From NCBI RefSeq assembly GCF_000725885.1, contig NZ_JODR01000001.1, positions 1 through 64,000 of the forward strand: a stretch of 64,000 bases of DNA. Reading direction: 5' to 3'. Shown here piece after piece: positions 26,477-33,504 of the stretch. Both the position numbers and the translations under genes were made by a program. The notes under the pieces are model-generated. The model was not told where the DNA came from. It searched no databases and saw nothing but the letters and a program-made list of their open reading frames with translations. This stretch comes from Streptomyces albus subsp. albus. Lineage in GTDB: Bacteria; Actinomycetota; Actinomycetes; Streptomycetales; Streptomycetaceae. Within the stretch, counting starts at the first letter, position 1; every line of letters begins with the position of its first letter.

Positions 26477-26938
26477 GTGTCCTCCTCCGACGACGTGAAG
26501 CCAGAAGCGCTGCCGGCGGGGTCGTGGGCGTCCTCCGCAGCACGCCGGCGGAACATGCAGGCGATCAGGAGCCGCGACACGACTCCCGAGCGCAAAATCC
26601 GTCAGCTTGTGCACGCCCGGGGCGCCCGGTACCGCGTGAGCGCGCGCCCGCTGCCGGACCTCCGGCGCACGGCCGACATGGTCTTCCGCTCCGCGAAAGT
26701 GGCCGTATTCATCGACGGCTGCTACTGGCACGGCTGCGACGAGCACTACGTACCGCCGAAGACGAACTCCGGCTACTGGTCGGACAAGGTCGCGCGCAAC
26801 ATAGCGCGCGACCGTGACACCGATCAGAAACTCACAGAAGCAGGCTGGCTCGTGCTCCGCTTCTGGGAGCACGAGGAATCAGACGTTTGCGCCGACAAGA
26901 TCCTCGCCGAAGTCAGAAGCAGGCGCGGAAACATCTGA
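26477..26938 (+). CDS. vsr: Vsr very-short-patch mismatch endonuclease
   Basis: A 153-residue endonuclease of the PD-(D/E)XK fold that nicks next to T:G mismatches arising from deamination of 5-methylcytosine. Family motifs are clear: NMQAIRSRDTTPE at the N-terminus, the catalytic aspartate in TADMVF, FIDGCYWHGC with zinc-ligand and active-site residues, and LRFWEHE near the end. GTG at 26477 has TAAGCT at 26464-26469 seven bases upstream, fitting a leaderless start; a GTG at 26495 is possible. The 3' end overlaps the methyltransferase gene by 60 bp in the opposite orientation. It probably protects this genome from mutation caused by the adjacent methyltransferase. Confidence 0.9.
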   Translation: MSSSDDVKPEALPAGSWASSAARRRNMQAIRSRDTTPERKIRQLVHARGARYRVSARPLPDLRRTADMVFRSAKVAVFIDGCYWHGCDEHYVPPKTNSGYWSDKVARNIARDRDTDQKLTEAGWLVLRFWEHEESDVCADKILAEVRSRRGNI

Positions 26939-28237
26939 CATCGGTGCTGCCTCAGTGGGTGCTTCATCTGTCGGCACCGCGTTCGATGACGCCCCTGCAA
27001 CCGCAGCCGCGGTTGCAGGCTCCTCGCCGATGACTGTCTGCACAAACCTGGGCCGGTCCTGGTCGACGGCGACATATTCGATTTCCAGGTCAGCCAGCAA
27101 CTCATGCGCACGTTCTGGCTGCAGCACAGATGCGATGGCCTTCCCCAGTGCTCTGGCGACGGGCGGCGGGAAAGCGTTGCCGACTTGCCGGTATTGCGCC
27201 GTCTTGCCTCCTGCGAATTTCCATTCCGCAGGGAAGCTCTGAATCTGGGCGGCCTGGGAGACAGTGAGCATGGGACCCTCTGCCCTGAGGAAGTCCCTGT
27301 CAAGATCGGTAGTGTCCTGAGCCTCGTTGGCGACGCCCATGGCGTTCACCTTGAAAGCAGCCCAGCTCTTCTTCGCACGGTTGGGCCCCAGGTCAGCCCC
27401 GCCGTGTTTACGCGAACCACCGACCAGGGTGGGCGCAACTTCCATCCCGGATTTCCGGGCTGCTTTTTCCCAAGCTTCGTAGGACTTGTTGATTTCGCTG
27501 CGACGGGACGGGAATCGCTTCTCAAGTACGCGCCGCCGCTCCTCCATGCTCTTCGCGAGAACATCGAAAAGCGTGTCACGCCCTGCAGAAACCCTCTCTG
27601 GCCAGGGGAACTTGGCGTCCGCATCCATGACGTCTTTGCGGATCGCGATGAGAATCGCTCGCGGCCTGAGCTGCGGAACATCGAAGACACGTGATTCGAG
27701 AAGGCGCCACCCGCAATACCTGTAGCCGTGCTCGTTGAGCTGGTCAACGATCCATGAACGGTATTCCTCGAATTTTTCGTGCAGGATACCCTTAACGTTC
27801 TCGATCAGCACCGCTCGCGGCTTGAGCTGACCGACGATTTCCAGCATCCGGGGGAACAGATCTCGTTCATCATCCCGGCCAAGCCGGTGCCCAGCGACGG
27901 AGAAAGGCGGGCAAGGGACGCCGCCTGCCAGCAGATCTAGCTCGCGTTCCTCTAGGGCCCGGGCAGGCTTTTCCTCATCGCCTTGCTTTTCACGGAGGGC
28001 CGCCATCGTGCGCCAAGGATCGAAGTTCTTCAAATCCTCCTCAAGAACTTCACATCCAGCCCATTCAGGGTCACTCTGCACGTTCTGCCGGAGCGTGGCA
28101 CATGCGTGCTTGTCGATCTCCACAAGAGCCAGGTGCCGGAAGCCAGCCTCGTGCAGTCCGATCGCCTGGCCGCCGGCCCCGGCACAGACCTCAACCGAGG
28201 TCAGCGGCTTCAGTGCGCCACGATCGCTCGCGCTCAT
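26879..28237 (-). CDS. dcm: C5 DNA cytosine methyltransferase (Dcm type)
   Basis: A 452-residue enzyme that transfers a methyl group from SAM to cytosine C5 in DNA. Motif I is VEVCAGAGGQAIGLHEAGF, motif IV is GGVPCPPFS with the nucleophile Cys109, motif VI is ENV (146-148), QLRPRAILIAIR fits motif VIII and GNAFPPPVA is motif X. The last 60 residues are an Ala/Pro-rich acidic tail, part of which is antisense to vsr. It lies 195 bp downstream of the helicase in the same direction. The target sequence cannot be read from the protein. Local G+C is below the flanks: 35 of 60 bases at 27301-27360 are G or C, against 46 of 60 at 34201-34260. Confidence 0.93.
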   Translation of the reverse strand: MSASDRGALKPLTSVEVCAGAGGQAIGLHEAGFRHLALVEIDKHACATLRQNVQSDPEWAGCEVLEEDLKNFDPWRTMAALREKQGDEEKPARALEERELDLLAGGVPCPPFSVAGHRLGRDDERDLFPRMLEIVGQLKPRAVLIENVKGILHEKFEEYRSWIVDQLNEHGYRYCGWRLLESRVFDVPQLRPRAILIAIRKDVMDADAKFPWPERVSAGRDTLFDVLAKSMEERRRVLEKRFPSRRSEINKSYEAWEKAARKSGMEVAPTLVGGSRKHGGADLGPNRAKKSWAAFKVNAMGVANEAQDTTDLDRDFLRAEGPMLTVSQAAQIQSFPAEWKFAGGKTAQYRQVGNAFPPPVARALGKAIASVLQPERAHELLADLEIEYVAVDQDRPRFVQTVIGEEPATAAAVAGASSNAVPTDEAPTEAAPMSDVSAPASDFGEDLVGANV

Positions 28238-28432
28238 CGGCGTGGTTCCTCCCAGCGTGACTCATAGCAGGTGCCCAAGTTTCGCAGAAAACTCTGCTGT
28301 CACCATGAGCCTGGAGCACACGACTATGCCCGCCCTGCCCTAGGAGTCTCGCAGCATGCCGGTGAACACGTGAACTGGGCTGCCGAAGGCACCAGGGTCG
28401 TTCGCGCCCTGCTTCATCGGCAGCCCGCCCAG

Positions 28433-30268
28433 TTACCTCTTTCCCAGATGCCTGAGCACAGCGCGCGCGTCGGTACTGTCCAGGCCGCCCACTGCCGCGG
28501 GAGCCTCCTGGAGATCGGCGAGCTGCTGAACCCCCGGGTCGTCCAGCACCTTGGACATGAACTCCAGCTTCTCCTGAAGCCGGACGTGGACGACTTCGTC
28601 GATGGTGTCCCGGGCCGCGATCACTGTGACACGTGTCTCGGTGTCCTGTGCCAGGCCGAGCCGGTGGATACGGTCGAGGCTCTGCAGGTAGCGGCCTGCC
28701 ATGAAGTCACGGTCCACGTAGACAGCATCGTGGCACACCTGGTGGAGGCTGATGCCCTCGCCGAGGGTTGCCGGGTTGGAGACCAGAACCATGCAGTCGG
28801 GGTCTTCCCTGAACCGCCGGATCTCGTCCTCCCGGTTGGGCGTTCCGCCGAAGACGACCGCCGTGGGATAGCCCTTGTCCTCCAGAAGCTTTGCCATGGA
28901 CGTGAGGCTGCGGACGAAGGTCGTCCAGACGAGGGTCTTCCTGCCCCGCGCCGCGTTCTGGGCAACGATGTCCGCCGCCGCTCCGTACTTGGGCGACAGC
29001 TCGTAGTCGGGCAGCCTCCGCAACAAGTCGTACAGAGATCCGCTCTCCGGGATTTCCAGCGGCGGAAGCCGGTACTCGACCGGCTCGTACTTGCTGGCGC
29101 CCTCCAGCAGCAGCGCGGGATTAGTGGCCGCCATCAGCATGCGGAGCGCTGACTTGCCCAGGTCGGCGAATTTGTCCGCCGATGCCTCTGCCCGCGCAGA
29201 CAGATCACCGACAAGAGCACGGTAGATCTCGTCGTGCAGGCCCGGCAGTTCGACCGTGAGGAGCCTGGCCGTCACGGGCGGCAGCCCCAGCTCCTGCTTT
29301 GTCGTACGGGTGAACAGCGGCCGGAGAACCGCGCTCGCGTGGGAGAGGTCTCCGCCGGACACAGCCTGCGTCACCACCCGCTGGCCGTGCCCCGGCCATA
29401 CGAAGCCCAGGAGGTTTTCCAGGTCCTTCGCCCCGTTCGGCGCCGGCGTGCCCGTCAGGATCAGCCGGCGCTTGGCCAGGGGACCGAGTGCCATGCAGGC
29501 CGCTCCGTAGGTCCCCTTCGCGCCGAGCTTCATCCGGTGGGCCTCGTCCAGAATGAGCATCGACGGCTCCTCCCTCAGCCATGCAGCGAGGAAGGAGAGG
29601 TTCCGGTCGAGCCGCTCGTAGTTGGCAATCAGGACCTCGGCGTGCGGGTCCTGGCCGCCGTCCAGCTTGCAGTAGCGCAGGCCGGGGGAGAAACAGATGC
29701 CCGATTCATAGATCCACGACTCGTAGGCGGACTTCGGGCTGATGACGAGCAGCCTGCGGGCCTCCCCCTTCGCTCGCATAGCCGCGTACACGCCCAGGGC
29801 TGCCCTGGTCTTGCCGGCACCGGGCACGCTGAAGTTGGCGCCATGCCGCAGGGAGAGCAGTTTGCTGATGTCGCGACGCTGGAACGCCGTGAGCGGCGCG
29901 GCCCACGCCGGTCCGAGGAGATCCCCGAGTTCCTCCTCGGACAGCAGCGCCCCGTCGTCCGCCTCCGGCGTGCTGAGCTGCTTCTCCGCAGTCTCCGCAT
30001 CCTGGATGCTGGAGACGACAAGGGCACTCAGATCCGGGTCCCACCGGACATTGTCAGGCGCCGACCAGCTGGACAGCAGGTTGATGCCGGACAGCAGATC
30101 CTCAAGATCGACGATCGCTGAGGAGGGGCCCAGCTGCCGCCCGGTCCGGAACCGGGCGACAAGCTGGATCAGGTCGGAGCGGTACTGGTCGGAAACCCGC
30201 AGCTCAGCCTTGGTGCGGCTCAGGTCGAAGCCCAGCCACAGTGAGGGCTCCGCTTCCTGGTCGGTCAC
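28433..30268 (-). CDS. SNF2-type DEAH helicase/translocase
   Basis: A 611-residue superfamily 2 ATPase. About 125 N-terminal residues of unknown fold precede the helicase core: Walker A PGAGKT at 149-154, DEAH at 241-244, TGTP at 272-275 and the motif VI sequence SLDRIHRLG near 530-538, which is typical of the SNF2/Rad54 group. Such proteins translocate on double-stranded DNA rather than unwind it. The start ATG overlaps the ParB-domain stop by 4 bp, so the two are probably translated together. In R-M and defence systems related enzymes drive DNA scanning or cleavage. The role here is inferred from the neighbours. Confidence 0.88.
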   Translation of the reverse strand: MTDQEAEPSLWLGFDLSRTKAELRVSDQYRSDLIQLVARFRTGRQLGPSSAIVDLEDLLSGINLLSSWSAPDNVRWDPDLSALVVSSIQDAETAEKQLSTPEADDGALLSEEELGDLLGPAWAAPLTAFQRRDISKLLSLRHGANFSVPGAGKTRAALGVYAAMRAKGEARRLLVISPKSAYESWIYESGICFSPGLRYCKLDGGQDPHAEVLIANYERLDRNLSFLAAWLREEPSMLILDEAHRMKLGAKGTYGAACMALGPLAKRRLILTGTPAPNGAKDLENLLGFVWPGHGQRVVTQAVSGGDLSHASAVLRPLFTRTTKQELGLPPVTARLLTVELPGLHDEIYRALVGDLSARAEASADKFADLGKSALRMLMAATNPALLLEGASKYEPVEYRLPPLEIPESGSLYDLLRRLPDYELSPKYGAAADIVAQNAARGRKTLVWTTFVRSLTSMAKLLEDKGYPTAVVFGGTPNREDEIRRFREDPDCMVLVSNPATLGEGISLHQVCHDAVYVDRDFMAGRYLQSLDRIHRLGLAQDTETRVTVIAARDTIDEVVHVRLQEKLEFMSKVLDDPGVQQLADLQEAPAAVGGLDSTDARAVLRHLGKR

Positions 30269-31692
30269 TCTTCCTCCTCAACCGCTGCTGCCTTCATCAG
30301 CCATTTGGTGCCCGCGCCCGGGCTGTCGTTGCCCCGGGAGACCTGCTGTGCCAACTGCCGGACCACCGTGCGGAACTCTGCGAGGGCTTCGTCGAAATCG
30401 TCGACGTCGAATGCCCGCGCGCCCTTCGCCTTGACTACCTCGCTGACGCACAGCTCCAGCGAGGTAGTGGCGTCCTTGAGACGCTCCTGGGCCAAGCGCT
30501 TCTTCTTGCGGAGACGGCCCGTCCGGCCGGCGTGGTCAATCGCCTCGTCAAAGGCGTCCTTGGTTTCCCCCAGGGTGTCCATCGCCTCGCGCCTGACGTC
30601 CTCGTCTATCTGCCGCGCATGTACCTGGGCCGTCGTCCGCAGCACAGTTTCCGCGATGCTGCGGGCCGTCTTCACCTTGTCCGACTCGGCCGGCATGGAG
30701 ACACCCAGGCCAGGGATCACAGTGGTGGCGGCAGTCGGCGCCGTGGCTTCCGGGGCGAGACGCTCCGGCAGTTCCTTACCGAGATAGTCGTCGTAGAATC
30801 CTTCGTCGATCCACCGGACATCCGTCTTGGCGAAGCCGAGCAGCAAAGCGGCCACGCGGTACTCCTTCAGCACTTCAGCACCGTCCGGGTCCGCCTTGTG
30901 CAGATTCGTGTAGTCGCGGTGCAGCTCCTTCAGCCGCTCCTGCATACCTTCGAAATCGACGAGACGCAGTGAGGCCCCCTCGGACTCACTCCGTTCGATC
31001 TGATCCCGGATGAGCTGCAGAATCCACACGTTCTGGTCGACGGTCTTCACTGCGCACCTGAACTCCTTGGCGATCGCCTCACGGGGGATGCCAAGGCGGA
31101 TGCGCTCGTCAATGGCCAGCAGCCTGTTGATGAAGGAGTATTCGCGGCGGCTGTCGTTGCGCAGCTGAAGAGACAGCTCAACAGCCGTGATGTCGTCCCA
31201 GGTGAAAGAGGCCGGCAGCACTCCGACACGCATGCTGGTAACGCCCAGTTGCCGCAGAGCCGCGGCCCGGGTGTTGCCGTTGACGAGAATGCCGTGGTGT
31301 GTGACAAGTCCCGGCTCGTTCTGGCCGTACTGGCGAAGGTCTTCCTTCAGCTTGTCGAACTCGGGATCACGCTTCGTCGGGTTCGTGGGCATGGCCTGCA
31401 GCAGCTCGCCCAGATAGTCCTGGCTCTCACCCCGCCACGGTGCGGACCTGAGCGTCTTCTCCCGCTCACGGTCGTGGCTGCACTGCGCCCGGATCCGGTG
31501 AGTCGCCGGGTTGTAAAGAAGATGCTCCAGCGGCAGGTCGATGACATCGACATGGAGCGCTTGTCCATTCCAGTCGACGGTTACCGTCTCGCGCGTGCCC
31601 CTGGCTCCCCTCGCCTCGTCGAGACGCAGCTTCAGCAGCTCTTCGAACTTCTCACTGCGCGGGGGCAGCGGGAATTCCTGAACACCAGTCAT
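30265..31692 (-). CDS. ParB/Srx-domain protein
   Basis: A 475-residue protein. A ParB-like nucleotide-binding domain spans about residues 50-160, with IDLPLEHLLYNP and NGNTRAAALRQLG (138-150). A helix-turn-helix-like part follows (ERIRLGIPREAIAKEFRCAV). The C-terminal 200 residues are charged and helical, with possible coiled coil. It is not a chromosome-partition ParB: the CTPase and HTH arrangement and a parA partner are absent. ATG at 31692 has GGAAGG upstream and lies 5 bp after the HNH-like gene, and the stop overlaps the helicase start by 4 bp. Family members occur in phosphorothioation and other DNA-modification operons, so a nuclease or DNA-sensing role is plausible but inferred. Confidence 0.8.
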   Translation of the reverse strand: MTGVQEFPLPPRSEKFEELLKLRLDEARGARGTRETVTVDWNGQALHVDVIDLPLEHLLYNPATHRIRAQCSHDREREKTLRSAPWRGESQDYLGELLQAMPTNPTKRDPEFDKLKEDLRQYGQNEPGLVTHHGILVNGNTRAAALRQLGVTSMRVGVLPASFTWDDITAVELSLQLRNDSRREYSFINRLLAIDERIRLGIPREAIAKEFRCAVKTVDQNVWILQLIRDQIERSESEGASLRLVDFEGMQERLKELHRDYTNLHKADPDGAEVLKEYRVAALLLGFAKTDVRWIDEGFYDDYLGKELPERLAPEATAPTAATTVIPGLGVSMPAESDKVKTARSIAETVLRTTAQVHARQIDEDVRREAMDTLGETKDAFDEAIDHAGRTGRLRKKKRLAQERLKDATTSLELCVSEVVKAKGARAFDVDDFDEALAEFRTVVRQLAQQVSRGNDSPGAGTKWLMKAAAVEEEE

Positions 31693-31697
31693 CGCTT

Positions 31698-32396
31698 TCA
31701 GCCTTCCTGCTTGGTCTCGCCATTGACCGCCGCTGCCAGCACCGCGCGGGCCTCCCCGGGCAGTGCGCGGTAGTGCCCCCACAGCCGCTCCAGGACGCCG
31801 CGGTCACGCCGGTCGGCCTTGATCCAGCCCGCCAGCACCTGCCGCTCGATAGCCGAGAGCGCCTTGACCTGCTCCACCATCCCGGCAAGATCTTCTTCCC
31901 GCGACCGGCCGCCGATCCGGCACTTGATGCATTCGGTGACGAGCTGCGTCTCCGTCTTACCGTTCGGCAGACGCACCTTACGGCGGGCGATGTCCAGCTG
32001 GGCCGTGGAGCTACCGTCCTCGTACGTCTCGCCGGAGCCGATACCGCACGACCGGCAGAGGTAGTTGTCCTGCTGCATCGTCTTGGTGCGCTGCGCCGCC
32101 GTGAGCGTTGACTGCGCCTTCGCCTTCGCCTGGCCGGGGATCCAAACCTCCGCGCCCCTCTTCACGTAACGCTGCTCGTCCTGCTCCAGCGTGGGATCCT
32201 CACGCCGGGTGTCGATCTGCCAGCCGTGGCTGCGCAGGTCCCGAAGGCGGCGATCGATCTGGGCCACCCCGGCGAAAGCCTCGCGCAGCTGCGCCTTGGT
32301 GAAGACGTTCCCCTCCCCCACTTCGGTCTCAAGCCACAGCCCTGCCCGGATCATCGATCCGAAGCTGGACTCATCCCGCCAGTCAGGAAGCGTCAT
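31698..32396 (-). CDS. HNH-like zinc-ribbon protein
   Basis: A 232-residue protein, first gene of the probable operon. The N-terminal half (SFGSMIRAGLWLETEVG, QIDRRLRDLRSHGW) resembles a winged-helix DNA-binding region. The middle has CRSCGIGSG and, 34 residues later, CIKC, the two Cys pairs that bind zinc in HNH nucleases. However, the position where HNH enzymes carry the catalytic histidine reads LDIARRKV, and CN after the last pair is replaced by CRIG. It may be a DNA-binding or catalytically altered HNH fold. The ATG at 32396 has GGAGAG six bases upstream, and a possible -10 (CATACT, minus strand) lies at 32415-32420. Confidence 0.75.
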   Translation of the reverse strand: MTLPDWRDESSFGSMIRAGLWLETEVGEGNVFTKAQLREAFAGVAQIDRRLRDLRSHGWQIDTRREDPTLEQDEQRYVKRGAEVWIPGQAKAKAQSTLTAAQRTKTMQQDNYLCRSCGIGSGETYEDGSSTAQLDIARRKVRLPNGKTETQLVTECIKCRIGGRSREEDLAGMVEQVKALSAIERQVLAGWIKADRRDRGVLERLWGHYRALPGEARAVLAAAVNGETKQEG

Positions 32397-32537
32397 CCGC
32401 GCTCTCCAATCGTGAGTATGAGCAGAAAAACAGAGCCCAGTCCCAACGGGGCGCGCTAGAGCCCGCCCCGCAGCGAGCTCCTCTTTTCCTACCCCATTCG
32501 AAGACCGACGTCTAGATGAATTCGCCCCGGAACGAGG

Positions 32538-32612
32538 TCTTTCCAGTTATCCAGCATCTTTCCAGTTCCAGCCTGCCGCGTCTTTCCAACTACCCCCGGT
32601 CTTTCCAGTTAT
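32538..32612. repeat. Four direct repeats in the divergent promoter region
   Basis: TCTTTCCAGTTAT (32538-32550), TCTTTCCAGTTCC (32557-32569), TCTTTCCAACTAC (32581-32593) and TCTTTCCAGTTAT (32600-32612) are spaced 19, 24 and 19 bp start to start, so they fall on about the same DNA face within pairs. They lie between the HNH-like operon and the divergent regulator, a location expected for operator sites. The rest of 32397-32772 holds promoters only. Confidence 0.7.
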
Positions 32613-32772
32613 TTATGGGCCACTTGGCCCTGGAAATCGCTGAGGCCAGCTGGTACCAATGGACATTCACCTCTGTCCGTCCGGACCAAGTCGGGTCGCA
32701 CATCGGGGACTTGTGCATGCATGCTCCCATCCACCCGGCCGCAGGTCCCATCAGCATGGGAGAAAGTCCGAC

Positions 32773-33504
32773 ATGCCAAGAAAGGGGCAGAGAAGCCCCA
32801 TCGACCCAACGTTCCCCCCTGAAAAGCGCAGGTACGTCCAGCAGCTCCGCACCCTGGTAGACGTCACAGGACTGTCTGGCGACGACTTCGTCGCGGAAGC
32901 GCAGTACCCATTCCAGGCGCCCACGCTTACGAAGTTGCTGGCAGGTGATGTCCTCAACTGGGGACACAGCGAGAAGATACTGGAGACCTCTGAGCGCCTG
33001 ATCGGGCGGAGACTGATCGAGGCAGCGGCACTCCGCAACCTGCACGAAGCGGCCGTCTTCAGCACCAAGGAAGGTCACCTGAAGGAAAAACGGCGGTGCG
33101 AGGACGCCCGGCGGCAGCCACAGGAGGACCGGAAACACCTGCCGGTCCCCCGCTCCGGCGGGGACCGGCAGGTGAACGCCCCGGAGACCACTCAGGCAGA
33201 ACGCTTTCTTGCCCGTCTGCTGAGAAACGAGGATGCGTCGGCACACGTGACTGTTGAGGTGCTGAACGCCGGCGCGGATGTCCTCCCGCCGTACGAGGCA
33301 GCCACGGTCATGGCCCGTCTGCAGCACCATCGCCGGTACGGCTTGGCGGACGACTTCGCCCAGATCTATGGCCGTGAGCAGGCCAGCGCGTCCGTCGTCC
33401 ACGCGGCCCGTGACCTCATCGACTCACACAGCATGCCGAATCTGGCATCCAGGCTGCTGACGGCGGCCATCTACCCGGCCGCCGTCAAAGCCGGTACTGA
33501 ATGA
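32773..33504 (+). CDS. Putative HTH regulator of the island
   Basis: A 243-residue protein divergent from the HNH-ParB-helicase-methyltransferase genes. The N-terminal 80 residues resemble an XRE-like helix-turn-helix (YVQQLRTLVDVTGLSGDDFV, then APTLTKLLAGD). A basic linker follows, then a helical C-terminal domain (DDFAQIYGREQASASVVHAA). I do not recognise a named family. The ATG at 32773 has GGGAGAAAG upstream. Its position beside four direct repeats suggests that it controls the island, but this is inference. The stop at 33504 marks the right edge of the island. Confidence 0.65.
   Translation: MPRKGQRSPIDPTFPPEKRRYVQQLRTLVDVTGLSGDDFVAEAQYPFQAPTLTKLLAGDVLNWGHSEKILETSERLIGRRLIEAAALRNLHEAAVFSTKEGHLKEKRRCEDARRQPQEDRKHLPVPRSGGDRQVNAPETTQAERFLARLLRNEDASAHVTVEVLNAGADVLPPYEAATVMARLQHHRRYGLADDFAQIYGREQASASVVHAARDLIDSHSMPNLASRLLTAAIYPAAVKAGTE

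Follow-up and report, generated by a model that had tools for sequence, protein, structure and literature searches.

Within positions 1 to 64,000 of contig NZ_JODR01000001.1 of Streptomyces albus subsp. albus, the 64,000-nucleotide stretch that is called the window here, a small island encodes a relative of HNH restriction enzymes that has lost its cutting residues. This pseudo-HNH protein (pHNH) is encoded together with a ParB-like protein and an SNF2-family ATPase, and these three, termed the triad in the following, lie beside the genes for a C5-cytosine DNA methyltransferase (Dcm) and the very short patch repair endonuclease Vsr. In a distant branch of the system, the slot next to ParB is filled by a restriction enzyme relative of an unrelated family, termed X, in which catalytic residues have also been lost. 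We tentatively read the island, with a confidence that falls just short of even, as a modification-coupled defence module that descends from a type II restriction-modification (R-M) locus and in which the disarmed enzyme would have been kept as a reader.

In the window's pHNH, R138, Q151 and R160 are found where intact relatives possess His, Asn or an acidic residue, and Asn, respectively, while the zinc cysteines C114, C117, C156 and C159 are retained. The comparison comprised 59 islands, namely the window and 58 further loci (fetched neighbourhoods and five named loci). The catalytic His is missing in 59/59 of these ParB-linked HNH proteins and the zinc cysteines are kept in 59/59, and Arg occupies the His column in all 120 listed database homologues, of 533 found. 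Among HNH relatives that are not linked to ParB, the catalytic His is present in seven of eight; the protein of L105, which has Arg at this column, is counted here, and an HNH fragment in L103 was left out of the residue counts. The AlphaFold2 model of pHNH (predicted local distance difference test score, pLDDT, 89) matches the HNH fold at a middling Z. pHNH agrees with HNH endonucleases in its homology and zinc cysteines, but not in the catalytic His and Asn. Judging from its sequence, it is probably the remnant of a restriction enzyme in which winged helix and zinc core were kept and the cutting residues lost. An earlier, sequence-only reading of this DNA had suggested that Dcm marks self DNA, that the HNH-like and ParB proteins sense or cut, and that the translocase drives the complex; this is supported in part, but it had missed that the HNH-like protein is devoid of nuclease residues.

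As HNH relatives with intact residues adjoin Dcm and Vsr, the island could also be viewed as an ordinary type II R-M system whose HNH enzyme is active and which carries two passenger genes, or as the decaying remnant of one. Of such a system, the methyltransferase is present at the locus, and no cognate restriction endonuclease (REase) with an intact catalytic site was identified there, as pHNH lacks the His/Asn/Asn residues and the window holds no relative of NaeI or NgoMIV, although an REase of a family not yet recognized may be present. The uniform loss of the His with uniform retention of the zinc cysteines speaks against both variants, and so do the low ratios of nonsynonymous to synonymous substitution rates (dN/dS 0.17 and 0.23 against two relatives) and the conservation of the triad across families of actinobacteria, so that we regard this explanation as highly improbable.

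Second HNH copies occur in five triad loci and were tallied apart from the above counts; three of them have the His and two do not. The three intact genes are found in L064, L070 and L074, and L064 and L074 also carry a second Dcm. The other two (L045:12834-13535 and L057:14650-15354) possess Leu at the His column and are nested among intact HNH proteins in the tree, apparently reflecting an independent loss of the His outside the triad slot. A compact Dcm-HNH-NaeI-Vsr locus is present on the Rhodococcus opacus plasmid pROB02 (L120), with no ParB or SNF2 match and with a DUF262 gene nearby; its HNH protein keeps the His and the first Asn and has Gly at the last position.

The sequence-only reading asked whether the genes recur together in other genomes, and they do. 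It must be considered that the loci were picked by close ParB similarity, and co-occurrence is therefore conditional on ParB. SNF2 adjoins ParB on the same strand in 58/58 loci, pHNH adjoins ParB in 58/58 (51 on the same and seven on the opposite strand), Dcm lies at most 6 kb away in 58/58 (median 332 bp), and Vsr was found in 56/58; Dcm and Vsr vary in orientation and side among the loci. Some triad loci are near-copies of each other, for example L056/L058, L066/L069 and L071/L072. In a class-wide sample of 246 genomes, the window's own included, ParB was present in six, and in all six, SNF2 (at least 54% identity), HNH and Dcm lie a few kb away at most on the same contig, with Vsr also nearby in five. 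Within a sample of 343 Streptomyces genomes, the genus being judged by named relatives, 58 gave a ParB match: 50 were full-length and close (own genome included), three belonged to a distant full system and five were weak and partial. An exception to the co-occurrence rule is a plasmid locus of S. albidoflavus (L109) with ParB, SNF2 and a NOV_C gene, for which pHNH, X, Vsr and Dcm were not found in the 19 kb read. L102 has no ParB, yet shows a distant SNF2-like match (32%). As further observations, about 5.6 kb of additional genes separate Dcm and SNF2 in L056 and L058, and in one class-sample genome (G121 C73:9868-11676, in L094) the SNF2 copy contains an internal TAG.

Co-inheritance of the five genes is not uniform. 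In a Mantel test with the 57 of 59 islands that possess all of them (L088 and L093, in which no Vsr was found, were left out), distance matrices agreed with rho values of 0.85 for ParB-SNF2, 0.69 for ParB-pHNH and 0.64 for SNF2-pHNH, while triad members reached only 0.41-0.45 with Dcm; the value for Dcm-Vsr was 0.57. As the agreement is best within the triad, the triad appears to be one unit and Dcm-Vsr another, the two being exchanged but found together. The flanking genes of the window's island, which encode PrsW and an aldo/keto reductase, are both present in the fetched stretch of just 7/58 loci (PrsW alone in one, neither in 50), indicating that the unit sits in several places.

The distant branch was recognized in three Streptomyces systems (L095-L097), whose SNF2 and ParB are about 40% and about 30% identical to those of the window. 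All three possess ParB, SNF2, NOV_C, another Dcm and Vsr, and no HNH match was found in them. Their ParB-adjoining gene X instead matches the PADLOC model of a type II restriction enzyme (2.5e-18 to 6.5e-22). A plasmid search with X gave 17 records, of which four alphaproteobacterial ones have 45-50% and 13 others 24-28% identity. On the four alphaproteobacterial plasmids (Azospirillum, Kozakia, Rhizobium and Mesorhizobium), X, ParB, SNF2 and DUF3883 are found in a row, with an insertion sequence (IS) element preceding DUF3883 in Mesorhizobium. A Dcm is encoded on the same plasmid in 4/4, so that each of the seven X-ParB systems has a Dcm on its locus or plasmid. The SNF2s of these plasmids share 61-65% identity with that of L097, which shows that the X branch crosses phyla. 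As a side observation, the Azospirillum plasmid TSH58_p07 (L123) encodes the AIPR, DUF4928, Dcm and DUF3883 proteins twice, in two blocks of which one has the complete X-ParB-SNF2-DUF3883 row and the other apparently breaks off at the end of the record.

Of the 13 distant plasmid records, seven were read, and X directly follows Dcm in all seven. Rhizobium carries both a ParB-linked and a Dcm-linked X. The Dcm-linked form keeps the PD-(D/E)XK signature, HD followed by (E/D)LK, in 8/8 proteins (seven plasmids and the second Rhizobium copy). In the ParB-linked form, V/I replaces the D and I/V replaces the acid in 7/7, the K being kept, and the two forms separate in the tree at 100/100 support. 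A conserved D is found two residues upstream in ParB-linked X, so that a migration of the acid may have occurred.

Taken together, a general immune architecture can be envisaged in which type II REases are disarmed and kept as methylation-sensitive readers for a ParB clamp gated by nucleoside triphosphates (NTP) and an SNF2 motor. It would have evolved independently from an HNH enzyme in actinobacteria and from a PD-(D/E)XK enzyme in Streptomyces and on plasmids of Alphaproteobacteria. Cutting would be left to a separate DUF3883 nuclease, or the outcome would not involve cleavage, and the reader slot would be swappable between REase families. We put this generalization forward with reserve, as possible rather than as probable.

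The properties of the other two triad proteins are compatible with such roles. The predicted fold of the ParB-like protein is nearest to Noc, KorB and ParB, that is, to CTP clamps, and it shows both the ParB-CTPase fold and the P-motif Arg. In SNF2, the motif columns PGAGKT, DEAH and DRIHRLG are conserved in at least 95% of the 59 copies, so that the helicase motifs are in place, and its relatives in the PDB are Chd1L (1.1e-16), Chd1, Sth1 and, weakly, DDM1 (1.9e-10). A fused nuclease domain was not detected in SNF2 by Pfam.

In the mechanism that we propose, Dcm would methylate a short site on the host DNA and so protect self, and Vsr would repair the deamination products; these are the standard roles of the two families. 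As winged helix and zinc core are kept and the cutting residues are gone, pHNH may act as the site reader, which would recognize the unmethylated site on incoming DNA and hand it over to two partners, the ParB-like NTP-gated clamp (ParB/KorB fold) and the SNF2 motor; the latter would translocate away from the site. In relatives, the DUF3883/NOV_C nuclease encoded beside SNF2 would then cut. As NOV_C was not found for the copy in the window, the outcome here might be that transcription or replication is blocked, or that another nuclease cuts.

NOV_C/DUF3883 (PF13020) is encoded beside SNF2 in each of the seven X systems (separated from it by the IS element in one) and next to SNF2 in 14/58 main-branch loci, as well as on the S. 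albidoflavus plasmid. Its GYD and ExK motifs are conserved in 20/20 distinct rows aligned, and DUF3883 is called an REase domain in the part of PMC3710099 covered. The window is devoid of NOV_C, and a single search of the own genome, with no positive control, found none.

KorB-type ParB clamps repress genes, and the triad might accordingly be a non-cleaving silencer, in which ParB, nucleated by pHNH, spreads on incoming DNA that is unmethylated and SNF2 carries the spreading further, so that transcription or replication is blocked. The nearest folds of the ParB-like protein suit this idea, as does the fact that no nuclease was found with the window's copy, but in relatives NOV_C, with its catalytic residues conserved, is encoded beside SNF2, and we think that silencing is unlikely to be the function. 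Alternatively, the nuclease could be ParB itself, as nicking has been reported for other ParB-fold proteins, or Vsr, if recruited to cut. Reports of nucleases in the ParB superfamily are summarized in the parts of PMC5512222 and PMC12839542 covered, but the predicted fold is closest to CTP clamps, and Vsr is also found in ParB-free Dcm loci; there is little reason to expect that either protein is the effector.

The window's Dcm falls into a 49-row clade (SH-like approximate likelihood ratio test, SH-aLRT, 99) together with Dcms that are encoded beside NaeI-type (PF09126 2.9e-112, PDB 1ev7 6.6e-91) and NgoMIV-type enzymes (PF09015 4.5e-55, PDB 1fiu 2.6e-39); the Dcm of L083 is absent from this tree. 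NaeI-family genes are found in 21/59 islands, six of them distant (27-35% identity), and NgoMIV in 3/59. No NaeI was found in the own genome, and the window's 21-row Dcm subclade (support 83) contains neither NaeI nor NgoMIV. NaeI cuts GCC/GGC (the slash marks the cut). In the part of PMC4081073 covered, NgoMIV cuts G/CCGGC, and the NaeI site is printed as GCC/CCG. Because the clade holds the NaeI- and NgoMIV-linked Dcms, GCCGGC is a reasonable guess for its methylation site; the guess is qualified by the NaeI-free subclade and by site counts, in which GCCGGC showed no special depletion. In divergent NaeI-like proteins of L004, L005, L064 and L093, the VDCK near the active site is replaced by VDIK or VEIK, which may reflect another specificity.

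These neighbours bear on a further explanation, in which the triad is a helper or guard of methylation that finds unmethylated host sites and either makes them accessible to Dcm or protects them against co-resident NaeI, NgoMIV or HNH enzymes. In plants, DNA methylation is supported by DDM1, a remodeller of the SNF2 family, to which the window's SNF2 shows a weak match among PDB chains. A Dcm lies nearby in every one of the selected loci, a shielding role would be compatible with a dead enzyme, and the NaeI and NgoMIV genes and the intact second HNH genes in three islands could supply the enzymes to be shielded from. However, neither an REase of these kinds nor another effector was seen nearby in 24/59 islands, and NOV_C beside SNF2 in the seven X-branch systems and 14 main-branch loci fits attack better, so that we consider a helper or guard function improbable. 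It is because no nuclease was identified with the window's copy that we still give some weight to the helper and silencer explanations besides the defence module.

The organization of the island (Table 1) is as the sequence-only reading had described it: a six-gene block of lower G+C (0.61-0.68 inside the 7-kb island, about 0.72-0.80 in the flanks) between PrsW (PF13367, 7.7e-51) and the aldo/keto reductase (PF00248, 5.4e-61). The triad genes are co-directional, with a 5-bp gap between pHNH and ParB and a 4-bp overlap between ParB and SNF2; Dcm follows 195 bp beyond SNF2 in the same direction, Vsr is convergent with Dcm and overlaps it by 60 bp, and a divergent open reading frame (ORF) lies at the other end. 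Of the gene identities it had given, Vsr, Dcm and SNF2 are borne out by Pfam/NCBIfam and ParB is clear by its predicted fold, the ParB-like and HNH-like proteins having no Pfam match above cut-off, while the HNH assignment rests on a middling fold match and that of the regulator is weaker.

Table 1. Genes and repeats of the island in the window.
Feature	Position	Strand	Remarks
Vsr (very short patch repair endonuclease)	26477..26938	+	GTG start; TIGR00632 9.7e-39, PF03852 5.4e-19
Dcm (C5-cytosine DNA methyltransferase)	26879..28237	-	PF00145 3.1e-58; proposed self-marker
SNF2-family ATPase/translocase	28433..30268	-	611 aa; PF00176 1.7e-15
ParB-like protein	30265..31692	-	ParB NTPase-fold domain, helix-turn-helix (HTH) region, long C-terminal helices
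pHNH	31698..32396	-	winged helix ~8-83 and HNH-like zinc domain ~94-168, without catalytic residues
Four near-copies of CTTTCCAGTT	32537..32610	+	12-mers at 32537, 32556, 32580 and 32599, between pHNH and regulator
Divergent putative HTH regulator	start 32659 or 32773, end 33504	+	

The divergent ORF has no Pfam match, and divergent neighbours in other loci gave HTH matches below threshold. In L002 and L042, the divergent neighbour shares 48% identity with it, and a tblastn match was obtained in 13/58 loci; other divergent HTH groups are c5 (38 of 59 islands), c39 (six) and c43 (four), one island matching two. The CTTTCCAGTT copies are spaced by 19, 24 and 19 bp, three related copies are found in L002, and from their sequence and position a role as operator is possible.

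With PADLOC, as the sequence-only reading had recommended, the matches listed for the island proteins were generic: Dcm matched DruM2 (1.6e-104, its best) and type II methyltransferase models, Vsr its own, and SNF2 weakly a helicase model. Regarding Druantia type II, no other Dru model was among the matches listed for the six island proteins, the scan covering the island genes. In open-licence full texts, to which the search was confined (subscription papers and REBASE lay outside its scope), the gene set was not found described, the closest being neighbourhoods in the part of PMC2292703 covered. These SWI2/SNF2 R-M operons with MORC share neighbourhoods of SNF2, HNH, cytosine methylase and Vsr with the island, but they are built on GHKL ATPases, and in the passages covered ParB is unmentioned and a dead HNH absent. 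The Mza type, to which the sequence-only reading had likened the island, differs in that it does not comprise pHNH, ParB or SNF2. Type II R-M systems of NaeI and NgoMIV share the related Dcm clade and Vsr, but have no relative of their REase in the window or its Dcm subclade. GmrSD, as described in the part of PMC10952713 covered, resembles the ParB/HNH pairing in combining GmrS, an NTPase of ParB/Srx fold, with the HNH-type GmrD in DNA defence; unlike the island, it uses an active His-Me nuclease against modified DNA and no Dcm-coupled dead enzyme.

If the proposed mechanism holds, the disarming of two unrelated restriction enzyme families in one slot would be new in kind. The module would bring together three things that were not combined in the papers found, namely dead REases that naturally serve to read DNA sites, ParB clamps that act outside chromosome segregation, and a role of SNF2 motors in the immunity of bacteria, and it would outline a route from an R-M system to NTP-driven defence. 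A shared recognition site of pHNH and the neighbouring Dcm would then be predicted, and the roles could be tested directly in common laboratory strains of Streptomyces. The closest mechanistic parallel may be CglI/NgoAVII, which, in the part of PMC5737866 covered, like our proposal combines a methyltransferase with a site-reading R protein (in CglI, a nuclease that also reads the site) and, as a separate component, a helicase-like motor translocating from there.

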